Shown one piece after another: positions 24,438 through 60,317 of a DNA stretch of 64,000 nt. Both the position numbers and the translations under genes were made by a program. The notes beneath the pieces were generated by a model that was not told the DNA's origin, searched no databases, and was given only the letters and a program-made list of their open reading frames with translations. The first letter of the stretch is position 1. Every line of letters begins with the position of its first letter. Source of the stretch: Gammaproteobacteria bacterium (GTDB lineage: Bacteria > Pseudomonadota > Gammaproteobacteria > Ga0077554 > Ga007554); assembly GCA_021731145.1 (NCBI GenBank), contig JAKFXX010000019.1:1-64000 (forward strand), read 5' to 3'.

Positions 24438-24489
24438 ATAATTTTAGGCTAAATTCGGCTAGCAGGGGGTTGATATCGCCCCCGCATGC

Positions 24490-24572
24490 CTGCTGGGGGT
24501 GCCTCGTATCAGGCGAGGCTGAGATATACCCTTTGAACCTGATCCGGTTAATACTGGCGTAGGGAAAGCAGT
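24490..24572 (+). ncRNA. TPP riboswitch (THI element)
   Basis: The conserved thi-box parts are present: GGGGGTGCC near the 5' side, GGCTGAGATATACCC (the pyrimidine-binding loop), CTTTGAACCTGATCCGG and GGCGTAGGGAAAGCAG at the 3' side. CTGCT at the start pairs with AGCAG at the end as P1. It precedes thiC by 120 bases. TGTTC and GAACA near 24600-24620 could form a hairpin of the expression platform. TPP binding would be expected to lower thiC expression. Confidence 0.95.
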
Positions 24573-24692
24573 ATCACAATGAAACTTTCGCCTGTGACGT
24601 TTGTTCACGGTATGCGAACACCCTTTCCCGTTCTTTCCCTGCGCTTGCCTCCGATTTCATTAGTTTTCGCCGGATATTTTGTAGAGGAATAG

Positions 24693-51873: not shown

Positions 51874-53214
51874 ATGAAAACTCTATTCAAAGCCATCCTG
51901 TTCAGCATGGCAATGCCTTATGCCGCCACCGCAACGCAAGCCCCTACACAACAAACCTGGATCCCCGGCTGGCAGGATACCGCGCCGCTCACCACCCCGC
52001 GGGCGGGTGCCGCAGCGATTGAGGCCCATGGCGTGATATATGTCATAGGCGGTATTGATGGCAGGCGTTTTTTATTTTCCGCCGAATACGCCCGCATACA
52101 GCCGGACGGTTCTCTTGCCCCATGGCGCAACGCCCCGCGCCTGAAAGAAGAGCGCGGCTTCTTTTCAGCGGTCTCGCACAATGGTTTTGTCTATGCCGTA
52201 GGCGGTGGCAATGGCCCCAACGGCAGCCATCTGCTGCGCTCCGTCGAGCGTGCGCGCATCTTGCCGGAGGGTGGCCTCGGCCCCTGGAAAAAGGAAAAAC
52301 ACGCGCTGGTCTATCCTCGCCGCTGCGCCAGGCTGGCGGTGGCGGGGCGCTATATTTATGCGCTGGGCGGCTACAGCGGGGCATTGCTGGACACGGTGGA
52401 GCGGGCGGAAATCCTGCCGGACGGCAGTCTCGGAAAATGGACGCTGGAGCCGCAGCATCTTACCCTGCCGCGCTATGTCCATGCCGTGGCACAGACCAAT
52501 GACGTCCTATTCGCCATCGGCGGGCATGCGCTAAGCCAGGCCACTGGCCAGCCGGAGGTGGAGTGGGCCGCGTTGAATGCTGGCGAGGCACCTCTGCAAT
52601 GGCGCCAGGCACCTCCGTTGACGACCGGGCGCTATGGCCTCTCGGCCATCACCCACGGCACGCATGTCTATGCGATAGGCGGCATCAACAATCTTGTCTA
52701 TCTCGATAGCATCGAGAAAACCAGCGTCGCTGCGGACGGCGCGCTGCAACCCTGGCAGGCCACCACGCCGCTGCCCGCGACCCGTGCCGATGCCGGCGTC
52801 GTGGTATACAAGGACTGGGTTTACCTGTTTGGCGGCACCAACGCGAGCGGCTATTACAACACCGCTTCTTACGCCACCTTCAACGATGCGGGCGACATCG
52901 GTTTCCTCGGCACGGCGGAGGCCAACAACCAGCGGCAAAACACGGCGACATCCGTGCCCGCCGCCGTCATCTCGCTGCCCAATGAAGGTGTGATCGCAGA
53001 GGTGATCGACACCGCGATGTACACCTATTTACGGGTGACCTCGCCCGATGGCGAAGAATGGCTGGCCGCCGCCAAAGGTGGATACGCGGTCAATGCCCGC
53101 ATCCGCTACAGTGATGGGGTACAGATGACGGATTTTTACAGCAAAACCCTGCAACGGCGCTTCGCCGTGATCCGCTTTGTGGGGCGAGTGGAAATCATGG
53201 ACGCTCCTCATTAA
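51874..53214 (+). CDS. secreted kelch-like beta-propeller protein
   Basis: A 446-residue exported protein with a signal peptide ending near ATA-TQAPTQ. Six or so kelch-type units follow, each with paired glycines after a hydrophobic strand (IYVIGGIDGRRFLFS, VYAVGGGNGPNG, IYALGGYSGALLD, VYAIGGINNLVYLDS, VYLFGGTNASGYYN), forming a predicted beta-propeller. About 100 residues at the C-terminus, with EEWLAAAKGGYAVNARIRY, form a separate beta domain. Binding is likely but no ligand is known. It begins two bases after the preceding stop. Confidence 0.8.
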   Translation: MKTLFKAILFSMAMPYAATATQAPTQQTWIPGWQDTAPLTTPRAGAAAIEAHGVIYVIGGIDGRRFLFSAEYARIQPDGSLAPWRNAPRLKEERGFFSAVSHNGFVYAVGGGNGPNGSHLLRSVERARILPEGGLGPWKKEKHALVYPRRCARLAVAGRYIYALGGYSGALLDTVERAEILPDGSLGKWTLEPQHLTLPRYVHAVAQTNDVLFAIGGHALSQATGQPEVEWAALNAGEAPLQWRQAPPLTTGRYGLSAITHGTHVYAIGGINNLVYLDSIEKTSVAADGALQPWQATTPLPATRADAGVVVYKDWVYLFGGTNASGYYNTASYATFNDAGDIGFLGTAEANNQRQNTATSVPAAVISLPNEGVIAEVIDTAMYTYLRVTSPDGEEWLAAAKGGYAVNARIRYSDGVQMTDFYSKTLQRRFAVIRFVGRVEIMDAPH

Positions 53215-53252
53215 CCCCGATTCTCCATTAACCTCAACACTGTTCACTTAGC

Positions 53253-53278
53253 GTTGGGTCAAACGAAGTGGACCCAAC
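53253..53278. repeat. dispersed palindromic repeat family 2, copy C
   Basis: GTTGGGTC and GACCCAAC, 8 bp perfect arms round an AAACGAAGTG loop. This is the minimal form of the unit seen at 32094-32170 and 36097-36221. It lies between the convergent kelch and NrsF-like genes and may also end transcripts. Confidence 0.6.
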
Positions 53279-53288
53279 TTCCTGAATG

Positions 53289-53927
53289 TCACCATTTCAG
53301 TAGCACTTTACCCAGCCACAAACCGATCAGACCGATGCCGAGCATGGGCAGATAGTGCCACTGGATGACGTGGATGATGGAGTCGTTAATCTCGTGCAGC
53401 CGCAGCCAAAGCGCGCCGACACTAAAGGCGGAAAGCAGGGCGATGCTACCGGCCAGCCGGTAATGCGTGCTGGCGAATTTGCGCATGGCATGGAACGTCC
53501 AGGCGGCGGGCAACAGTGTCATCAACGTGATGCTGAGAGTGCATTCGAGGCTTTGCACCGGCAGCGGCGCGGGCGGGCTGTCGGCGTGCCAGGCAAAGTA
53601 TATGACCAGCAAAAATAGCGCAAACATCCACGTCGGGGAAAAGGCTATGCCGCGCTTCTGGTGCAGGTCGGGAAACGCCAGCAAGGCAGCGCTGAGCGAA
53701 GTGGCGATGAAAATGCCGAGCAGGGATGCAAGCTCGGCGACGAACCACGGCTCGTGGAACTTCTGCGCCAGATCCGGGCGCGGGCCGGAAAGTGTGAGCG
53801 ATATCGCAAGATAGGCTGCGGCGGCGCCCAACCACTTCATGCTTAGCCTGAGCGGGTGCGGTGCAGGTTTCACCGCCGCTGCATCTTCGGCCAGCGTCTC
53901 GATCAGTTGCTCGAAGTCTTCTTTCAT
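53289..53927 (-). CDS. nrsF: NrsF-type anti-sigma factor (DUF1109)
   Basis: A 212-residue protein with about six membrane segments and the DUF1109 pattern. In Caulobacter, NrsF of this family binds the ECF sigma factor SigF and holds it inactive until metal or redox stress. It overlaps the sigma gene by four bases (ATGA), which supports an anti-sigma role. Cysteine is scarce (LECTLSITL), so a direct thiol-sensing role is not obvious from sequence. Confidence 0.8.
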   Translation of the reverse strand: MKEDFEQLIETLAEDAAAVKPAPHPLRLSMKWLGAAAAYLAISLTLSGPRPDLAQKFHEPWFVAELASLLGIFIATSLSAALLAFPDLHQKRGIAFSPTWMFALFLLVIYFAWHADSPPAPLPVQSLECTLSITLMTLLPAAWTFHAMRKFASTHYRLAGSIALLSAFSVGALWLRLHEINDSIIHVIQWHYLPMLGIGLIGLWLGKVLLKW

Positions 53928-54463
53928 CGTTCCAGCTTCTTTCGCAGTATCTTGTAGGCACGATGTGCCGCGACCTTCACTGCCGACTCGTTCATACCCA
54001 TCTTCTCCGCCACCTCTTTGGCTGTGTAGCCCTCCTGATGCATCATCCGCAGGATGGTCGCCTGCTTTTCGGGGAGTTTATTGATTTCCCCACTGATAGA
54101 TTCGTAACTCATGGCAGATCCGGTTACATCTTCATGCAAATCATTCTCCACCTCGCACAAGTCCACGGCATGGCGCAAATGATCAGCATAGTGATCGCGC
54201 AGGTAATCCTGCAATCGGAATCTGGCGATGGCATAGGCCCAGGGCTTGTAGGGACGCATACCATCGTAAGTGTGGCGTGCCTTATGGATGGAAATCAAAA
54301 TTTCCTGTAACAGGTCATCCACCTCGCTGCCGAAGCTCAAACGTTTGGCGAGGAAAGGCTGTAATAATCTCGCTGTTTCACGCAACAGCTCGGCGTAGGC
54401 GCGCTTGTCACCGTCCAGCGACTGGCGCATCAGCGCTTCCAGATTATCAGTTTTGTCCGTCAC
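53924..54463 (-). CDS. sigF: ECF sigma factor, SigF-like
   Basis: A 179-residue extracytoplasmic-function sigma factor. Region 2 has FGSEVDDLLQEILISIHKAR and MRPYKPWAYAIARFRLQDYL. Region 4 has LPEKQATILRMMHQEGYTAKEVAEKM with a helix-turn-helix. There is no sigma region 1 or 3, as in all ECF factors. The gene is divergent from the bufferin-type operon. It is co-transcribed with nrsF, and probably directs the operon through the promoter at 54487-54512. Confidence 0.9.
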   Translation of the reverse strand: MTDKTDNLEALMRQSLDGDKRAYAELLRETARLLQPFLAKRLSFGSEVDDLLQEILISIHKARHTYDGMRPYKPWAYAIARFRLQDYLRDHYADHLRHAVDLCEVENDLHEDVTGSAMSYESISGEINKLPEKQATILRMMHQEGYTAKEVAEKMGMNESAVKVAAHRAYKILRKKLER

Positions 54464-54486
54464 CTAATGTTTCTCGAATCTTGCAT

Positions 54487-54512
54487 GTAACTTTTTTTCA
54501 AGCTCTCCCGAA
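54487..54512 (+). promoter_or_regulatory. SigF-type ECF promoter for the buf operon
   Basis: GTAACT, 16 bases, then CGAA, compared with the GTAACC-N16-CGAA reported for Caulobacter SigF targets. The predicted start is about 108 bases before bufA. No other ECF-like promoter is evident upstream of the operon. Confidence 0.6.
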
Positions 54513-54627
54513 TATGTCCATGCGCGGATGAAATTCGGCTGAGCACTGTAAGCAAGCCAGGATTTTCCCGATCAACGTTTGGGGACGATCTCTCCAATTA
54601 TATCAATCAACAAAGAGGATTTATATT

Positions 54628-54897
54628 ATGAATAACCGCCATATCCTGTCAGCCGCAATTGGCACTTTACTGGCGCTTGGCCTGGCCAGCGGCAATGTAA
54701 ATGCCGCCGACAAAAAAATGGAAATGGAAAAGTGTTTTGGTATCGCCAAGGCGGGCAAGAATGATTGCTCCAGCAATAAGAGCGCGCATTCTTGTGCGGG
54801 CCAGGCCACCAAAAACAATGATCCCATGGATTTCGTCGCTGTGCCAAAAGGTACTTGCGACAAGATCGCTGGCGGAAGCTTGGCAGGATCCATGTAA
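54628..54897 (+). CDS. bufA: DUF2282 bufferin-type precursor BufA
   Basis: An 89-residue exported precursor. A signal peptide ends near NVNA-ADKK. The mature part contains the four conserved cysteines of the DUF2282 group in [20 protein letters not shown] and GTCDKIAGG. In Caulobacter such proteins (bufferins) are RiPP-like precursors whose cysteines are modified by the MNIO enzyme BufB, with a role in copper handling. The order bufA-bufB-bufC-doxX and the nearby ECF sigma gene match that system. The ATG follows AGAGGAT. Modification in this strain is inferred, not seen. Confidence 0.85.
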
Positions 54898-55739
54898 TGG
54901 ACAAACCCGCAACCCATGCCTTGCCATGCACCGCCGGTATCGGGTTGCGGGCACCTCATTACCGTGAGGTGCTGGAGACATTACCCAAGCTCGGCTGGGT
55001 GGAGGTACATAGCGAGAATTTTTTCGGTGGTGGCGCGCCCCTTCATACCTTGCTCCGGGTGCGCGAACATTACTCTATCAGCCTGCATGGCGTGGGAATG
55101 GGACTGGCATCGGCGGCGCCCCTTGCCGAGGATCATTTGTCCGCTTTGCATCGCCTGTGTGATGCGGTGCAACCCGCCGCTGTGTCGGAACATTTGTGCT
55201 GGAATTCTGCCGTCGGCATGGTCATCAACGATCTGTTACCCTTCCCCTATACACATGAGGCATTGTCCCACGTAACGAGCCGCATTGAGCAAGTGCAGGA
55301 AAAATTAGGCTGCCAACTGCTGGTGGAAAATCTCTCCAGCTATTTGTCGTTCTCGCACAGTGAAATGAGCGAGGGCGAATTCCTTGCCGAATTAACCCGG
55401 CGCACCGGCTGCGGCATCCTGTTCGATGTCGAAAACCTGTATGTGAACGCGCGCAATCTCGGTGTGGATGCTGGGGCGTTTATCAGGGCAATTCCGGCTG
55501 AAGCCGTGAAGGAGTACCACCTGGCCGGGTACGGCATAATGGATGGCTGCCTGGTAGATACCCATGGCGCGCCAGTCTGTCCCGAGGTATGGGATTTGTA
55601 TGAGCTTGCCTTACGGCACATCGGGCCACGCCCCACGCTGATCGAATGGGATACCGATATCCCGGAACTGCCGACACTGCTGGGTGAGGCGACAAAAGCG
55701 CAGCAATATATGGAGAGATACCATGCGGACATTGAATAA
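54897..55739 (+). CDS. bufB: MNIO (DUF692) enzyme BufB
   Basis: A 280-residue multinuclear non-heme iron-dependent oxidative enzyme of the DUF692 family. Likely metal ligands lie in SLHGVGMGL, SEHLCWN, LLVENLSSYL, ILFDVENLYVNARN, EYHLAGYG, VDTHGAPV and TLIEWDTDIP. The usual HxAGH motif reads HLAGY, so one of its two histidines is tyrosine. Family members modify cysteines in a peptide partner. The start overlaps the bufA stop (TAATG), so coupled translation is likely. Most residues needed for a three-metal centre appear present. Confidence 0.9.
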   Translation: MDKPATHALPCTAGIGLRAPHYREVLETLPKLGWVEVHSENFFGGGAPLHTLLRVREHYSISLHGVGMGLASAAPLAEDHLSALHRLCDAVQPAAVSEHLCWNSAVGMVINDLLPFPYTHEALSHVTSRIEQVQEKLGCQLLVENLSSYLSFSHSEMSEGEFLAELTRRTGCGILFDVENLYVNARNLGVDAGAFIRAIPAEAVKEYHLAGYGIMDGCLVDTHGAPVCPEVWDLYELALRHIGPRPTLIEWDTDIPELPTLLGEATKAQQYMERYHADIE

Positions 55740-56505
55740 TGTCTTATCTGACCTTGCTCACGCTATCGTCCATGGTCACGAGACACCGCCGGATGCACAG
55801 GCCGTCTACCCGAACTACCGCGTCACAACGGCCATGACTGTTTATCGAAACAATTATCGCGGCAATCTGCATGACACCCTTGCATGCGTTTATCCGGTCA
55901 CCGAGCAGCTCGTCGGCAAGGATTTCTTCCGAATGATGACGCGGCAATTTATCGGGCAGCATTTTTCATGCAGCGGGAACCTGCATCATTACGGCGCGGA
56001 GATGGCCGCATTCATTGCGGGCTTTACTCCTGCACAAGGCCTGGCTTACCTGCCGGATGTTGTGGCGCTTGAATGGGCCTGCCATTGCGCCTACTTCGCA
56101 CCGGATGCGGCCACGCTCGATATCAACAAACTGTCGCGGATACCGCCCGGGCATTATCCTGATTTGATCCTGCTCATCCATCCGGCCTGTCACGTGGTGC
56201 GTTCCCGATATCCGATCACAGCCATCTGGCATGCTCACCAGCCGAATGCGCCCGGTGAATTTCATATCGACCTGGATAGCGGACCCTGTATAGCTTTGGC
56301 AAGCCGCATGAATGATGTTATTCATGTCAGCGAACTGGCTGAAGCCGATGCCGCATGGCTACTCAGCATCCAGGCCGGAACCCCACTGGGCACAGCGACC
56401 GACGCCACACAGAAGCAGTATCCGGACTTTGATTTGCAAGCCGCTCTGATAAATCTGGCATCAAAAAATGTCCTGACGGATTTCAACCTGGGGGCTGCGC
56501 CATGA
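55723..56505 (+). CDS. bufC: DUF2063 partner protein BufC
   Basis: A 260-residue protein of the DUF2063 family, often annotated as a putative DNA-binding domain protein. YRNNYRGNLHDTLACVYPVT and FIAGFTPAQGLAYLPDVVAL-like blocks are typical. In RiPP pathways it pairs with DUF692 enzymes and is thought to help recognise the precursor. DNA binding is not supported by anything I see. The ATG at 55723 lies inside bufB, giving a 17-base overlap. The operon order B-C is the usual one. Confidence 0.88.
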   Translation: MRTLNNVLSDLAHAIVHGHETPPDAQAVYPNYRVTTAMTVYRNNYRGNLHDTLACVYPVTEQLVGKDFFRMMTRQFIGQHFSCSGNLHHYGAEMAAFIAGFTPAQGLAYLPDVVALEWACHCAYFAPDAATLDINKLSRIPPGHYPDLILLIHPACHVVRSRYPITAIWHAHQPNAPGEFHIDLDSGPCIALASRMNDVIHVSELAEADAAWLLSIQAGTPLGTATDATQKQYPDFDLQAALINLASKNVLTDFNLGAAP

Positions 56506-56978
56506 CGCCGTTGTTACGTCTTGTCCGGCTTTATTACACTACGTCACACTTGCCGGAATGCCTGGCTCCTGCCCTTGATCTGGGGCTGAGATTATTTGTG
56601 GCAAATGTCTTTTTCAAATCCGGATTAACCAAGATACAGAGCTGGGACAGCACGTTGTATCTGTTCAGCGATGTATATCAGGTGCCGCTGCTGCCACCGG
56701 AGCTTGCGGCATGGCTAGCCACCAGCGCAGAACTTGGCCTGCCTGTGTTGCTGGCATTGGGGCTGTTTGGGCGCTTCGCCGCAGCCGGACTGTTCATTCT
56801 CAACCTGGTTGCTGTTATCTCTTATTACTCCGGACTGAGTGAAGCGGGCATCAACCAGCACTTGTATTGGGGCATGTTGCTGGCGGTGTTGTTGCTGATA
56901 AGCCGAGGTGCCTGGTCGGTAGATACCTGGCTGGAAAAGCGATTAAAGCTCCACGCCGTCTGCGCACAGCGCCTGTGA
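56502..56978 (+). CDS. bufD: DoxX family membrane protein
   Basis: A 158-residue protein with four hydrophobic segments and the DoxX/DUF pattern (FVANVFFKSGLTKIQSWDST, LVAVISYYSGLSEAG). Fourth gene of the bufferin-type operon, overlapping bufC by four bases. Members of the family may link quinone or redox chemistry to the membrane, and their role in this pathway is open. Confidence 0.85.
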   Translation: MTPLLRLVRLYYTTSHLPECLAPALDLGLRLFVANVFFKSGLTKIQSWDSTLYLFSDVYQVPLLPPELAAWLATSAELGLPVLLALGLFGRFAAAGLFILNLVAVISYYSGLSEAGINQHLYWGMLLAVLLLISRGAWSVDTWLEKRLKLHAVCAQRL

Positions 56979-57068
56979 GACCTTCCCCGCCACGCAGCGG
57001 TGCCTCCCATGCATGAATAATCCGGCATTAACGTTTTGCAGGTGTTTCCATTGTGATAAGTTATAGCC

Positions 57069-58580
57069 ATGAAAAATTACATTGAAAAAATTCTCACGGC
57101 GCGCGTCTACGATGTGGCGCAGGAAACACCACTGGATCTGATGCGCACACTGTCGCAGCGGCTGGGTAACCGCGTAATGCTCAAGCGCGAGGATCTGCAG
57201 CCGGTGTTTTCCTTCAAGCTGCGCGGTGCATACAACAAGATCGTTAATCTGCCACCGGGCGCGGCGCAAAACGGCGTGATCACTGCCTCGGCGGGCAATC
57301 ACGCCCAAGGGGTAGCGCTGGCGGCGCGCAAGCTGGGCATTCCGGCGCTGATCGTCATGCCGCGCACCACCCCGGATATCAAAGTGGCATCGGTGCGCAG
57401 CCTGGGTGCGACCATTGCGCTGCATGGCGACGCGTATGACGAAGCCTATCAACACGCGGCGCAACTGGCCGTGGATAATGGCATGGTGTTTATTCACCCT
57501 TACGACGATCCTGATGTCATCGCCGGGCAAGGCACCATCGGTGTGGAGATCCTGCGCCAGCACACCGATCCATTGCACGCCATTTTCATCCCGGTGGGCG
57601 GCGGCGGGCTGATTGCCGGGGTATCCGCGTATGTGAAATACCTCTGGCCGGAGATCAAGATCATTGGCGTCGAACCGGAGGATGCGGCAAGCATGTACCA
57701 CGCGCTGCGCACCGGCGAACGCGTGACGCTGGATCATGTCGGGATCTTCGCCGACGGTGTGGCAGTGCGGCAGGCGGGTGCCGAGACCTTCCGCATTGCG
57801 CGCCAGTGCGTCGACGAAATCATCCTCGTCAGTACCGATGAGATCTGCGCCGCGATCAAGGATATCTTTGACGATACCCGTTCCATCGCCGAACCCGCCG
57901 GTGCGCTGGCTGTGGCGGGGCTTAAAAAGTATGTGGCGAGAGAGGGGCTGGAAAACCAGAACATGGTAGCCATCGACAGTGGCGCCAACATGAATTTTGA
58001 CCGGCTGCGCCACATCGCGGAACGCGCCGAAGTGGGTGAGCGCCACGAGGCGATCATCGCGGTGACGATCCCCGAGCGTCCCGGCAGCTTCCGGCAGTTC
58101 TGTGAATCCCTCGGCGAACGCAGCATTACCGAATTCAACTATCGTTATTCCGACCCCAGTCAAGCCCATGTGTTCGCGGGCATAAAGCTGGCTCACGGTG
58201 AAACGGAGAAGAGCGACATCATCGAACGGCTGCAGGCGCAGGGTTATCCTGTGACCGACATGACGGACAACGAAGTGGCGAAGCTGCATGTGCGCTACAT
58301 GGTGGGCGGACACCCTCCCGCCGTTGAGCACGAAGTCATCTACCGCTTCGAATTCCCTGAGCGGCCCGGCGCCCTGTTGCGGTTTCTCAACAAGATGGGG
58401 CAGCGCTGGAATATCAGCATGTTTCATTACCGCAATCATGGCGCGGCGTATGGGCGGGTATTGGTGGGCGTTCAAGTGCCTCCTGAAGAGACGCCCAGCT
58501 TCCTGTCCTTTCTCGCGGAGGTAGGCTACGAGCATCAGGACGAAACCAGTAACCCTGCTTATACGTTATTTCTGAGTTAA
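57069..58580 (+). CDS. ilvA: threonine ammonia-lyase, biosynthetic
   Basis: A 503-residue PLP enzyme that deaminates threonine to 2-oxobutyrate, the first step of isoleucine synthesis. The lysine motif is FSFKLRGAYNKI; the glycine-rich phosphate loop is PVGGGGLIAGVSAYVK. The C-terminal half has two ACT-like regulatory domains (VTIPERPGSFRQFCESLGER and FPERPGALLRFLNKMG), which give isoleucine feedback control, as in the long IlvA type. It follows the bufferin-type operon by about 90 bases and may have its own promoter. Confidence 0.96.
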   Translation: MKNYIEKILTARVYDVAQETPLDLMRTLSQRLGNRVMLKREDLQPVFSFKLRGAYNKIVNLPPGAAQNGVITASAGNHAQGVALAARKLGIPALIVMPRTTPDIKVASVRSLGATIALHGDAYDEAYQHAAQLAVDNGMVFIHPYDDPDVIAGQGTIGVEILRQHTDPLHAIFIPVGGGGLIAGVSAYVKYLWPEIKIIGVEPEDAASMYHALRTGERVTLDHVGIFADGVAVRQAGAETFRIARQCVDEIILVSTDEICAAIKDIFDDTRSIAEPAGALAVAGLKKYVAREGLENQNMVAIDSGANMNFDRLRHIAERAEVGERHEAIIAVTIPERPGSFRQFCESLGERSITEFNYRYSDPSQAHVFAGIKLAHGETEKSDIIERLQAQGYPVTDMTDNEVAKLHVRYMVGGHPPAVEHEVIYRFEFPERPGALLRFLNKMGQRWNISMFHYRNHGAAYGRVLVGVQVPPEETPSFLSFLAEVGYEHQDETSNPAYTLFLS

Positions 58581-58646: not shown

Positions 58647-58877
58647 TTACTTCTTCTTGGGCGCTGCTTTTTTGGCTGGGGCGGCCTTCTTTACGGCTGC
58701 CTTTTTGACTACGGCCTTTTTAGCCGGTGCTGCTTTCTTTGCAGGAGCTGCCTTTTTAGCAGGAGCTGCTTTCTTCACGGGAGCCGCCTTCTTGGCAGGC
58801 GCCACCTTCTTCTTTGCGGGCGCTGCTTTTTTGGCAGGCGCTGCTTTCTTCTTTACTGCGGCTTTTTTTACGGCCAT
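58647..58877 (-). CDS. histone H1-like Lys/Ala-rich protein
   Basis: A 76-residue protein made almost only of Lys, Ala, Pro and Val in units such as KKAAPAKKAAP, resembling the C-terminal tail of histone H1 and bacterial AlgP- or HctB-like proteins. It should be highly basic and bind DNA without sequence preference, in the nucleoid. The ATG at 58877 is preceded by GGAGGAAG. GTACAT and ATGTAC form a perfect inverted repeat in the leader (58899-58912). The low-complexity DNA may vary in length among strains. Confidence 0.85.
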   Translation of the reverse strand: MAVKKAAVKKKAAPAKKAAPAKKKVAPAKKAAPVKKAAPAKKAAPAKKAAPAKKAVVKKAAVKKAAPAKKAAPKKK

Positions 58878-59009
58878 CTTGCTTCCTCCATGTTGGATGT
58901 ACATAAATGTACGGAACTAAGTATAAACAAGTTTGCACGGATTTCTAAAGTGCTAACGCTACTTATATCGTACTTTGCATCAAATCACTTTAATTTTTTG
59001 TGAATAAAT

Positions 59010-60118: not shown

Positions 60119-60317
60119 AGGAGGACATCCTCCGCCTGTGACGTTATAGGCCTTCGTTCTTGAACCAAAGGTTCAAGTGGGTACCTGTGCGATGCATCAG
60201 GCTTCCCGCTCGGAGGCGGGCATGCACACCAACATCAAGCAAACAGGTTCCCGGGGTCCTAAAATAGGCTCAAGAAATGACCCGGCCCAGCACGGGCACC
60301 GCAGGGGATGTCCAGAT
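60119..60317 (-). ncRNA. ssrS: 6S RNA
   Basis: Minus-strand RNA of about 190-200 nt between zapA and the 5-FCL gene. The ends pair (GGACATCC at 60313-60306 with GGATGTCC at 60130-60123). The 5' side resembles CCTGCGGTG...GGGCC and TTCTTGAGCC of known 6S RNAs. The 3' side has the conserved CTTGAACC/GGTTCAAG hairpin (60158-60177). It binds RNA polymerase holoenzyme in stationary phase. Exact ends are approximate. Confidence 0.9.

Follow-up and report, generated by a model that had tools for sequence, protein, structure and literature searches.

A bufferin-1 operon, very probably horizontally acquired, with a divergent SigF-NrsF pair of the Glu179 type

How does a bufferin operon work when it sits in a genome as an inserted unit beside its own sigma factor, and which signal turns it on? 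The question is raised by a locus in a gammaproteobacterium (GTDB Ga0077554; assembly GCA_021731145.1). The analysed window comprises the first 64,000 nucleotides of contig JAKFXX010000019.1. Four genes, bufA-bufB-bufC-doxX (54628-56978, forward strand), form a complete Buf1/DUF2282 bufferin operon; a sigma factor gene, sigF, and an anti-sigma factor gene, nrsF, diverge from bufA. The locus is very probably a horizontally acquired, self-regulated bufferin-1 cassette.

The first gene, bufA (54628-54897, forward), codes for a DUF2282 bufferin-1 precursor of 89 amino acids (Pfam PF10048, E 5.1e-26). A signal peptide with an AxA site, cut between VNA and AD, was judged by eye. Cys36, Cys47, Cys56 and Cys77 are all invariant in 114/114 aligned homologues. 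The second gene, bufB (54897-55739, forward), encodes the MNIO (DUF692) bufferin maturase (Pfam E 1.7e-101). Its score against the NCBIfam BufB family NF050167 (359 bits, cut-off 310) identifies an MNIO maturase of the BufB type, and the protein aligns to the solved MNIO proteins 3bww (E 3.6e-34), TglH and MbnB. The residues H64, E98, H99, E144, D177, H208, D221, H223 and E250 are retained in 91-93 of 93 relatives and are putative metal ligands. The DUF2063 and RRE-type partner protein of the MNIO enzyme (PME type 1) is encoded by bufC (55723-56505, forward; Pfam E 4.8e-19). A sequence search of the PDB gave no match for BufC; a fold search with its AlphaFold model (predicted local distance difference test, pLDDT, 93.7) did, with 3dee (NGO1945) and TglHI as the best matches. 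Both are known MNIO partner proteins, and the modelled BufC fits a DUF2063-RRE partner. The last gene, doxX (56502-56978, forward), codes for a DoxX/HvfX-type membrane protein (Pfam E 7.9e-19), which reached 64 bits against the HvfX family, under that family's cut-off of 80. Successive genes of the operon share 1, 17 and 4 bases.

On the reverse strand, sigF (53924-54463) has a GTG start and encodes a SigF/ECF16-like extracytoplasmic function (ECF) sigma factor with the Pfam domains Sigma70_r2 and r4_2. It overlaps by 4 bases with nrsF (53289-53927, reverse), which codes for a membrane anti-sigma factor (Pfam NrsF/DUF1109, E 2.2e-45) with Cys129 and Glu179. The NrsF model, of low confidence (pLDDT 65, built from six usable sequences only), has six long helices after residue 20, as expected for an NrsF domain with six transmembrane helices. 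SigF fits an ECF sigma factor with a linked DUF1109/NrsF anti-sigma factor and a GTAAC-N17-CGAA promoter at the target. Such a predicted SigF-dependent promoter, GTAACTTTTTTTCAAGCTCTCCCGAA (54487-54512, forward), lies in the gap as an exact GTAACT-N16-CGAA that reads towards bufA and ends 115 bases ahead of its start. When the 164-bp gap was shuffled and one strand scanned, the nine-base core GTAAC-N17-CGAA was matched in 0.035% of the shuffles. Within 300 bases upstream, a perfect core site precedes 18 of 21 bufA genes with a linked sigF-nrsF, 1 of 16 with an unrelated linked ECF gene and 9 of 77 without any linked ECF gene.

Across the host genome the pattern GTAACT-N16-CGAA has six matches, and six in the reversed control, so the count alone is uninformative. 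Position is informative: only bufA has a perfect site placed as a promoter, and the remaining five matches are inside genes or distant from gene starts. The predicted SigF regulon is thus a single operon. Upstream of sigF itself there is no perfect site (best match 5/9), and sigma-anti-sigma autoregulation from a SigF site is not a feature of this locus. DUF2282, MNIO and NrsF are each encoded by one gene in the genome, all at the bufferin locus. The first-pass annotation of this DNA had described a complete four-gene order with overlapping genes, a divergent SigF-like ECF factor and NrsF-like membrane anti-sigma factor, a GTAACT-N16-CGAA promoter in the gap and four conserved precursor cysteines after a signal peptide; the family assignments, overlaps, exact site and homologue alignment agree with each of these. 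Its term 'self-contained' also holds, both for the sole DUF2282, MNIO and NrsF locus and for the sole promoter-placed perfect motif.

The proposed working builds on features established directly, namely gene content and order, motif, cysteine conservation, enzyme and partner families, insertion and the lack of another promoter-placed site; thiooxazole chemistry, copper binding and SigF control we infer from Caulobacter and others. A periplasmic signal would alter NrsF and release SigF. RNA polymerase with SigF would start at GTAACT-N16-CGAA and transcribe bufABC-doxX. With the RRE domain of BufC as its guide, BufB may convert Cys47 and Cys56 of BufA to 5-thiooxazoles. After export of BufA, a Cys36-Cys77 disulphide would form, and the mature peptide, some 63 residues long, may bind excess copper in the periplasm. 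In characterised bufferins, which bind copper, BufB and BufC modify the central cysteines and the outer pair is linked by a disulphide (PMC12452194).

The whole locus lies on an inserted segment of about 3.83 kb (53218-57047) between a kelch gene and ilvA. In a congener (G004), the kelch gene joins ilvA directly, the counterparts of window bases 53217 and 57048 being neighbours. The host's order was represented by eight genomes in the search, the host and seven relatives. The MNIO and NrsF genes are absent from all seven relatives, and so is DUF2282 except for one partial match (G007). The G+C content of the insert is 54.9% versus 58.5% for the window. The cassette was very probably acquired horizontally. 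The insert encodes no integrase, transposase or other mobility gene, its edges show no convincing terminal repeats or mobile-element gene, and a plasmid search for NrsF relatives found none. The kelch-ilvA junction (window 53214-57069) is variable in the genus, being empty in G004 and occupied by the bufferin cassette here. At the same junction, G005 has a short open reading frame between inverted CCCTCTCCC repeats and G006 another repeat (L124, L126); both sequences are short and unrelated.

The nearest buf genes were found in Gallionellaceae-type genomes, with BufA and BufB about 80-88% identical. Several of these operons have a different ECF gene (TIGR02943), others none in the examined stretch. 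The closest homologues of SigF and NrsF (83% and 72% identical) are paired next to the gene of a Met-rich peptide (L161). The locus looks modular in sequence comparison, as the buf genes and the sigma pair have different closest relatives. At the nearest buf operons, those of L003, L004 and L022, the divergent ECF genes were first read as SigF. This was rejected: those of L003 and L022 are TIGR02943-type on scanning, the products of L003 and L004 share about 20% identity with SigF, and NrsF is missing from all three. The divergent ECF genes of the closest operons, without NrsF, are at L003 2627-3250, L022 2851-3420 and L028 3005-3622. An unrelated ECF gene on an operon of the same type, as in these three, would represent regulator exchange.

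The layout is not new. A sigF-nrsF pair diverges from bufA in 13 further sampled genomes, and Caulobacter and Cupriavidus share the arrangement. In Caulobacter, sigF-nrsF (CC3253-CC3252) adjoins the bufferin operon CC3254-CC3257; SigF controls this operon and CC2907-CC2905 from GTAACC-N16-CGAA promoters (PMC3511200). The six families, the order DUF2282-DUF692-DUF2063-DoxX, the neighbouring sigF-nrsF and the promoter class are the same as in CC3252-CC3257 (PMC3511200, PMC12452194). Unlike Caulobacter, the present locus has Glu at the second Cys of NrsF and no SigF-type site before sigF, and it lies on an inserted segment in a different bacterial order and in a genome without a second buf operon. 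In Cupriavidus metallidurans, gigPABT forms a divergon with rpoQ-rsqA and is induced by periplasmic Cu(I) (PMC10304878). It shares a small periplasmic protein with four cysteines, DUF692-like, DUF2063 and DoxX-like proteins and a divergent ECF sigma factor with a membrane anti-sigma factor (PMC10304878). This likeness concerns gene content and layout, not the sequences of RpoQ and RsqA, and RpoQ control of gig is unproven in Cupriavidus (PMC10304878). Sigma and NrsF genes are also reported for Buf1 clusters generally (PMC12452194). Linkage with an own sigma pair, on which the first-pass annotation based its term 'self-contained', therefore does not set this locus apart (PMC3511200, PMC10304878, PMC12452194).

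SigF/NrsF-type systems also control other targets. Hypochlorite-responsive examples are Azospira suillum sigF-nrsF with mrpX and yedYZ, and Brucella bcrS-abcS with bcrXQP (PMC4623255, PMC8315932). The sigma and anti-sigma families and the promoter class (GTAACCTTTTT...CGAA in Brucella) are shared with the window locus. In those two, a Met-rich peptide and Msr (methionine sulfoxide reductase) system is the target, and not a bufferin as here; Brucella AbcS keeps C129 and C179. In Bradyrhizobium OsrA, C129 apparently holds the sigma factor and C179 is essential for its release by H2O2 (PMC3420878). The anti-sigma family, length and Cys129 agree with EcfF-OsrA (PMC3420878). Unlike in that pair, OsrA C179 is replaced by Glu179, and ecfF is autoregulated whereas this sigF is without a site.

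At position 179 this NrsF differs from its relatives in Caulobacter, Brucella and Bradyrhizobium. C129 is present, and the second conserved Cys (C179/181 in relatives) is replaced by Glu. Judged by sequence, the protein fits the domain family and does not fit the two-cysteine sensor type. All 71 NrsF homologues, a sample that is uneven and mostly from one order, keep the first Cys; at the second position, 43 have Cys, 27 have Glu and 1 has His. The 27 Glu179 proteins form one clade (support 100/97). A perfect site upstream of sigF occurs in 0/27 of this clade versus 29/39 in the remainder; because the Glu179 type is one clade, the count is descriptive only and the Fisher test for loss of autoregulation (p 1.5e-10) does not give a fair probability. 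Glu179 and the loss of the site upstream of sigF are probably a single evolutionary change.

The 27 Glu179 loci have 33 perfect sites in 259 kb, about 2 being expected. The genes behind them, classed by simple sequence patterns, are bufA (7), MsrB (5), MsrA (4), Met-rich small proteins (5), CcdA/DsbD (3), KCG-repeat precursors (2) and unclassified genes (7). By these predicted targets, the clade would mostly drive oxidised-methionine and oxidant-defence genes. Small exported Met/Lys-rich repeat proteins (MXKDX type, MrpX-like) are encoded in L161, L165, L166, L167, L168 and L170, behind a perfect SigF site and divergent from Glu179-type sigF-nrsF. At L163 (6334-6666), L164 (3938-4270) and L191 (6368-6640), KCG-repeat precursors (EGKCG/oxazolin-like) replace DUF2282, and the sigF-nrsF pairs adjoin MNIO clusters having these precursors.

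The inducer may be periplasmic oxidant stress (hypochlorite, peroxide, or copper via oxidation) and not a metal held by a Cys pair; this proposal is put forward tentatively. It may well apply because the clade's other targets are mostly for defence against oxidants and methionine sulfoxide. With sites before Msr, Met-rich, DsbD-like and bufA genes, an oxidant trigger is as plausible as a metal. The regulator clade points to an oxidant and the product to copper; the periplasm is where the two come together, and copper promotes oxidation there as well. Several points weigh against the oxidant. The two-Cys NrsF of Caulobacter responds to Cr and Cd (PMC3511200) and not to peroxide; the family thus has varied inducers. 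No Glu179-type NrsF could be linked to a published response. The target classes depend on simple patterns, and bufA as a target in other Glu179 loci is compatible with copper. A stronger proposal is that the Glu179 clade, without the sensing Cys and without sigF autoregulation, ties bufferin to defence against oxidised methionine and reactive chlorine or peroxide. This is doubtful. If true, the sensing chemistry would differ from the two-cysteine model, and the bufferin would be primarily an oxidant-stress peptide.

A metal cassette in the style of Caulobacter is an equally likely contender, held at somewhat below even chances. Cu, Au or Cd would act directly on NrsF, with Cys129 and Glu179 as ligands, and free SigF, and the bufferin would buffer the metal. 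Gene order and promoter are those of the Cr- and Cd-induced CC3252-CC3257 (PMC3511200), and gigPABT, in the same arrangement, answers to Cu(I) (PMC10304878). All 71 homologues have a possible metal ligand at position 179, be it Cys, Glu or His. However, the second conserved Cys is missing from NrsF, most other classified targets of the clade repair or scavenge oxidised sulphur and are not metal binders, and the genes bordering the insert code for a kelch protein and IlvA, not for metal resistance. The label 'metal-stress' of the first-pass annotation is not established, given the missing Cys and a clade that would mostly drive oxidised-methionine and oxidant-defence genes.

Improbable, though worth weighing, is a near-constitutive bufferin. 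Glu179 would mimic an oxidised Cys, NrsF would hold SigF weakly and expression would be fairly constant. In Caulobacter NrsF, Ser at either conserved Cys, C181S included, increases basal expression (PMC3511200), and with no SigF site before any of the 27 Glu179-type sigF genes, the feedback loop that needs tight repression is missing. The opposite outcome was seen in Bradyrhizobium, where OsrA C179S kept repressing under H2O2 (PMC3420878), and the presence of the Glu179 clade in many genomes with an invariant Cys129 argues for a working switch. That the sigma pair joined the operon only recently and serves another regulon here would agree with bufABC-doxX being nearest to operons with a TIGR02943 gene or none and with SigF and NrsF being nearest to L161, but is very unlikely, since bufA alone among the gene starts of the genome is preceded by a perfect site, and in L023, too, a SigF of this clade goes with a bufA of this kind.

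Elsewhere in the window, a 6S RNA (60125-60310, reverse) and a thiamine pyrophosphate (TPP) riboswitch (24485-24583, forward) reached Rfam gathering scores. A low-complexity protein with KAAPAKK repeats (58647-58904, reverse) is similar to histone H1-like proteins.

As a class of copper-binding peptides, bufferins are young, and their inducers are known in few organisms. That the empty site is clean suggests transfer of such cassettes as functional units. With one regulator pair and one predicted target, NrsF sensing can be tested free of a larger regulon. At a residue that is essential in Bradyrhizobium OsrA, the Glu179 clade offers a natural variant, which makes the two-cysteine sensing model directly testable.

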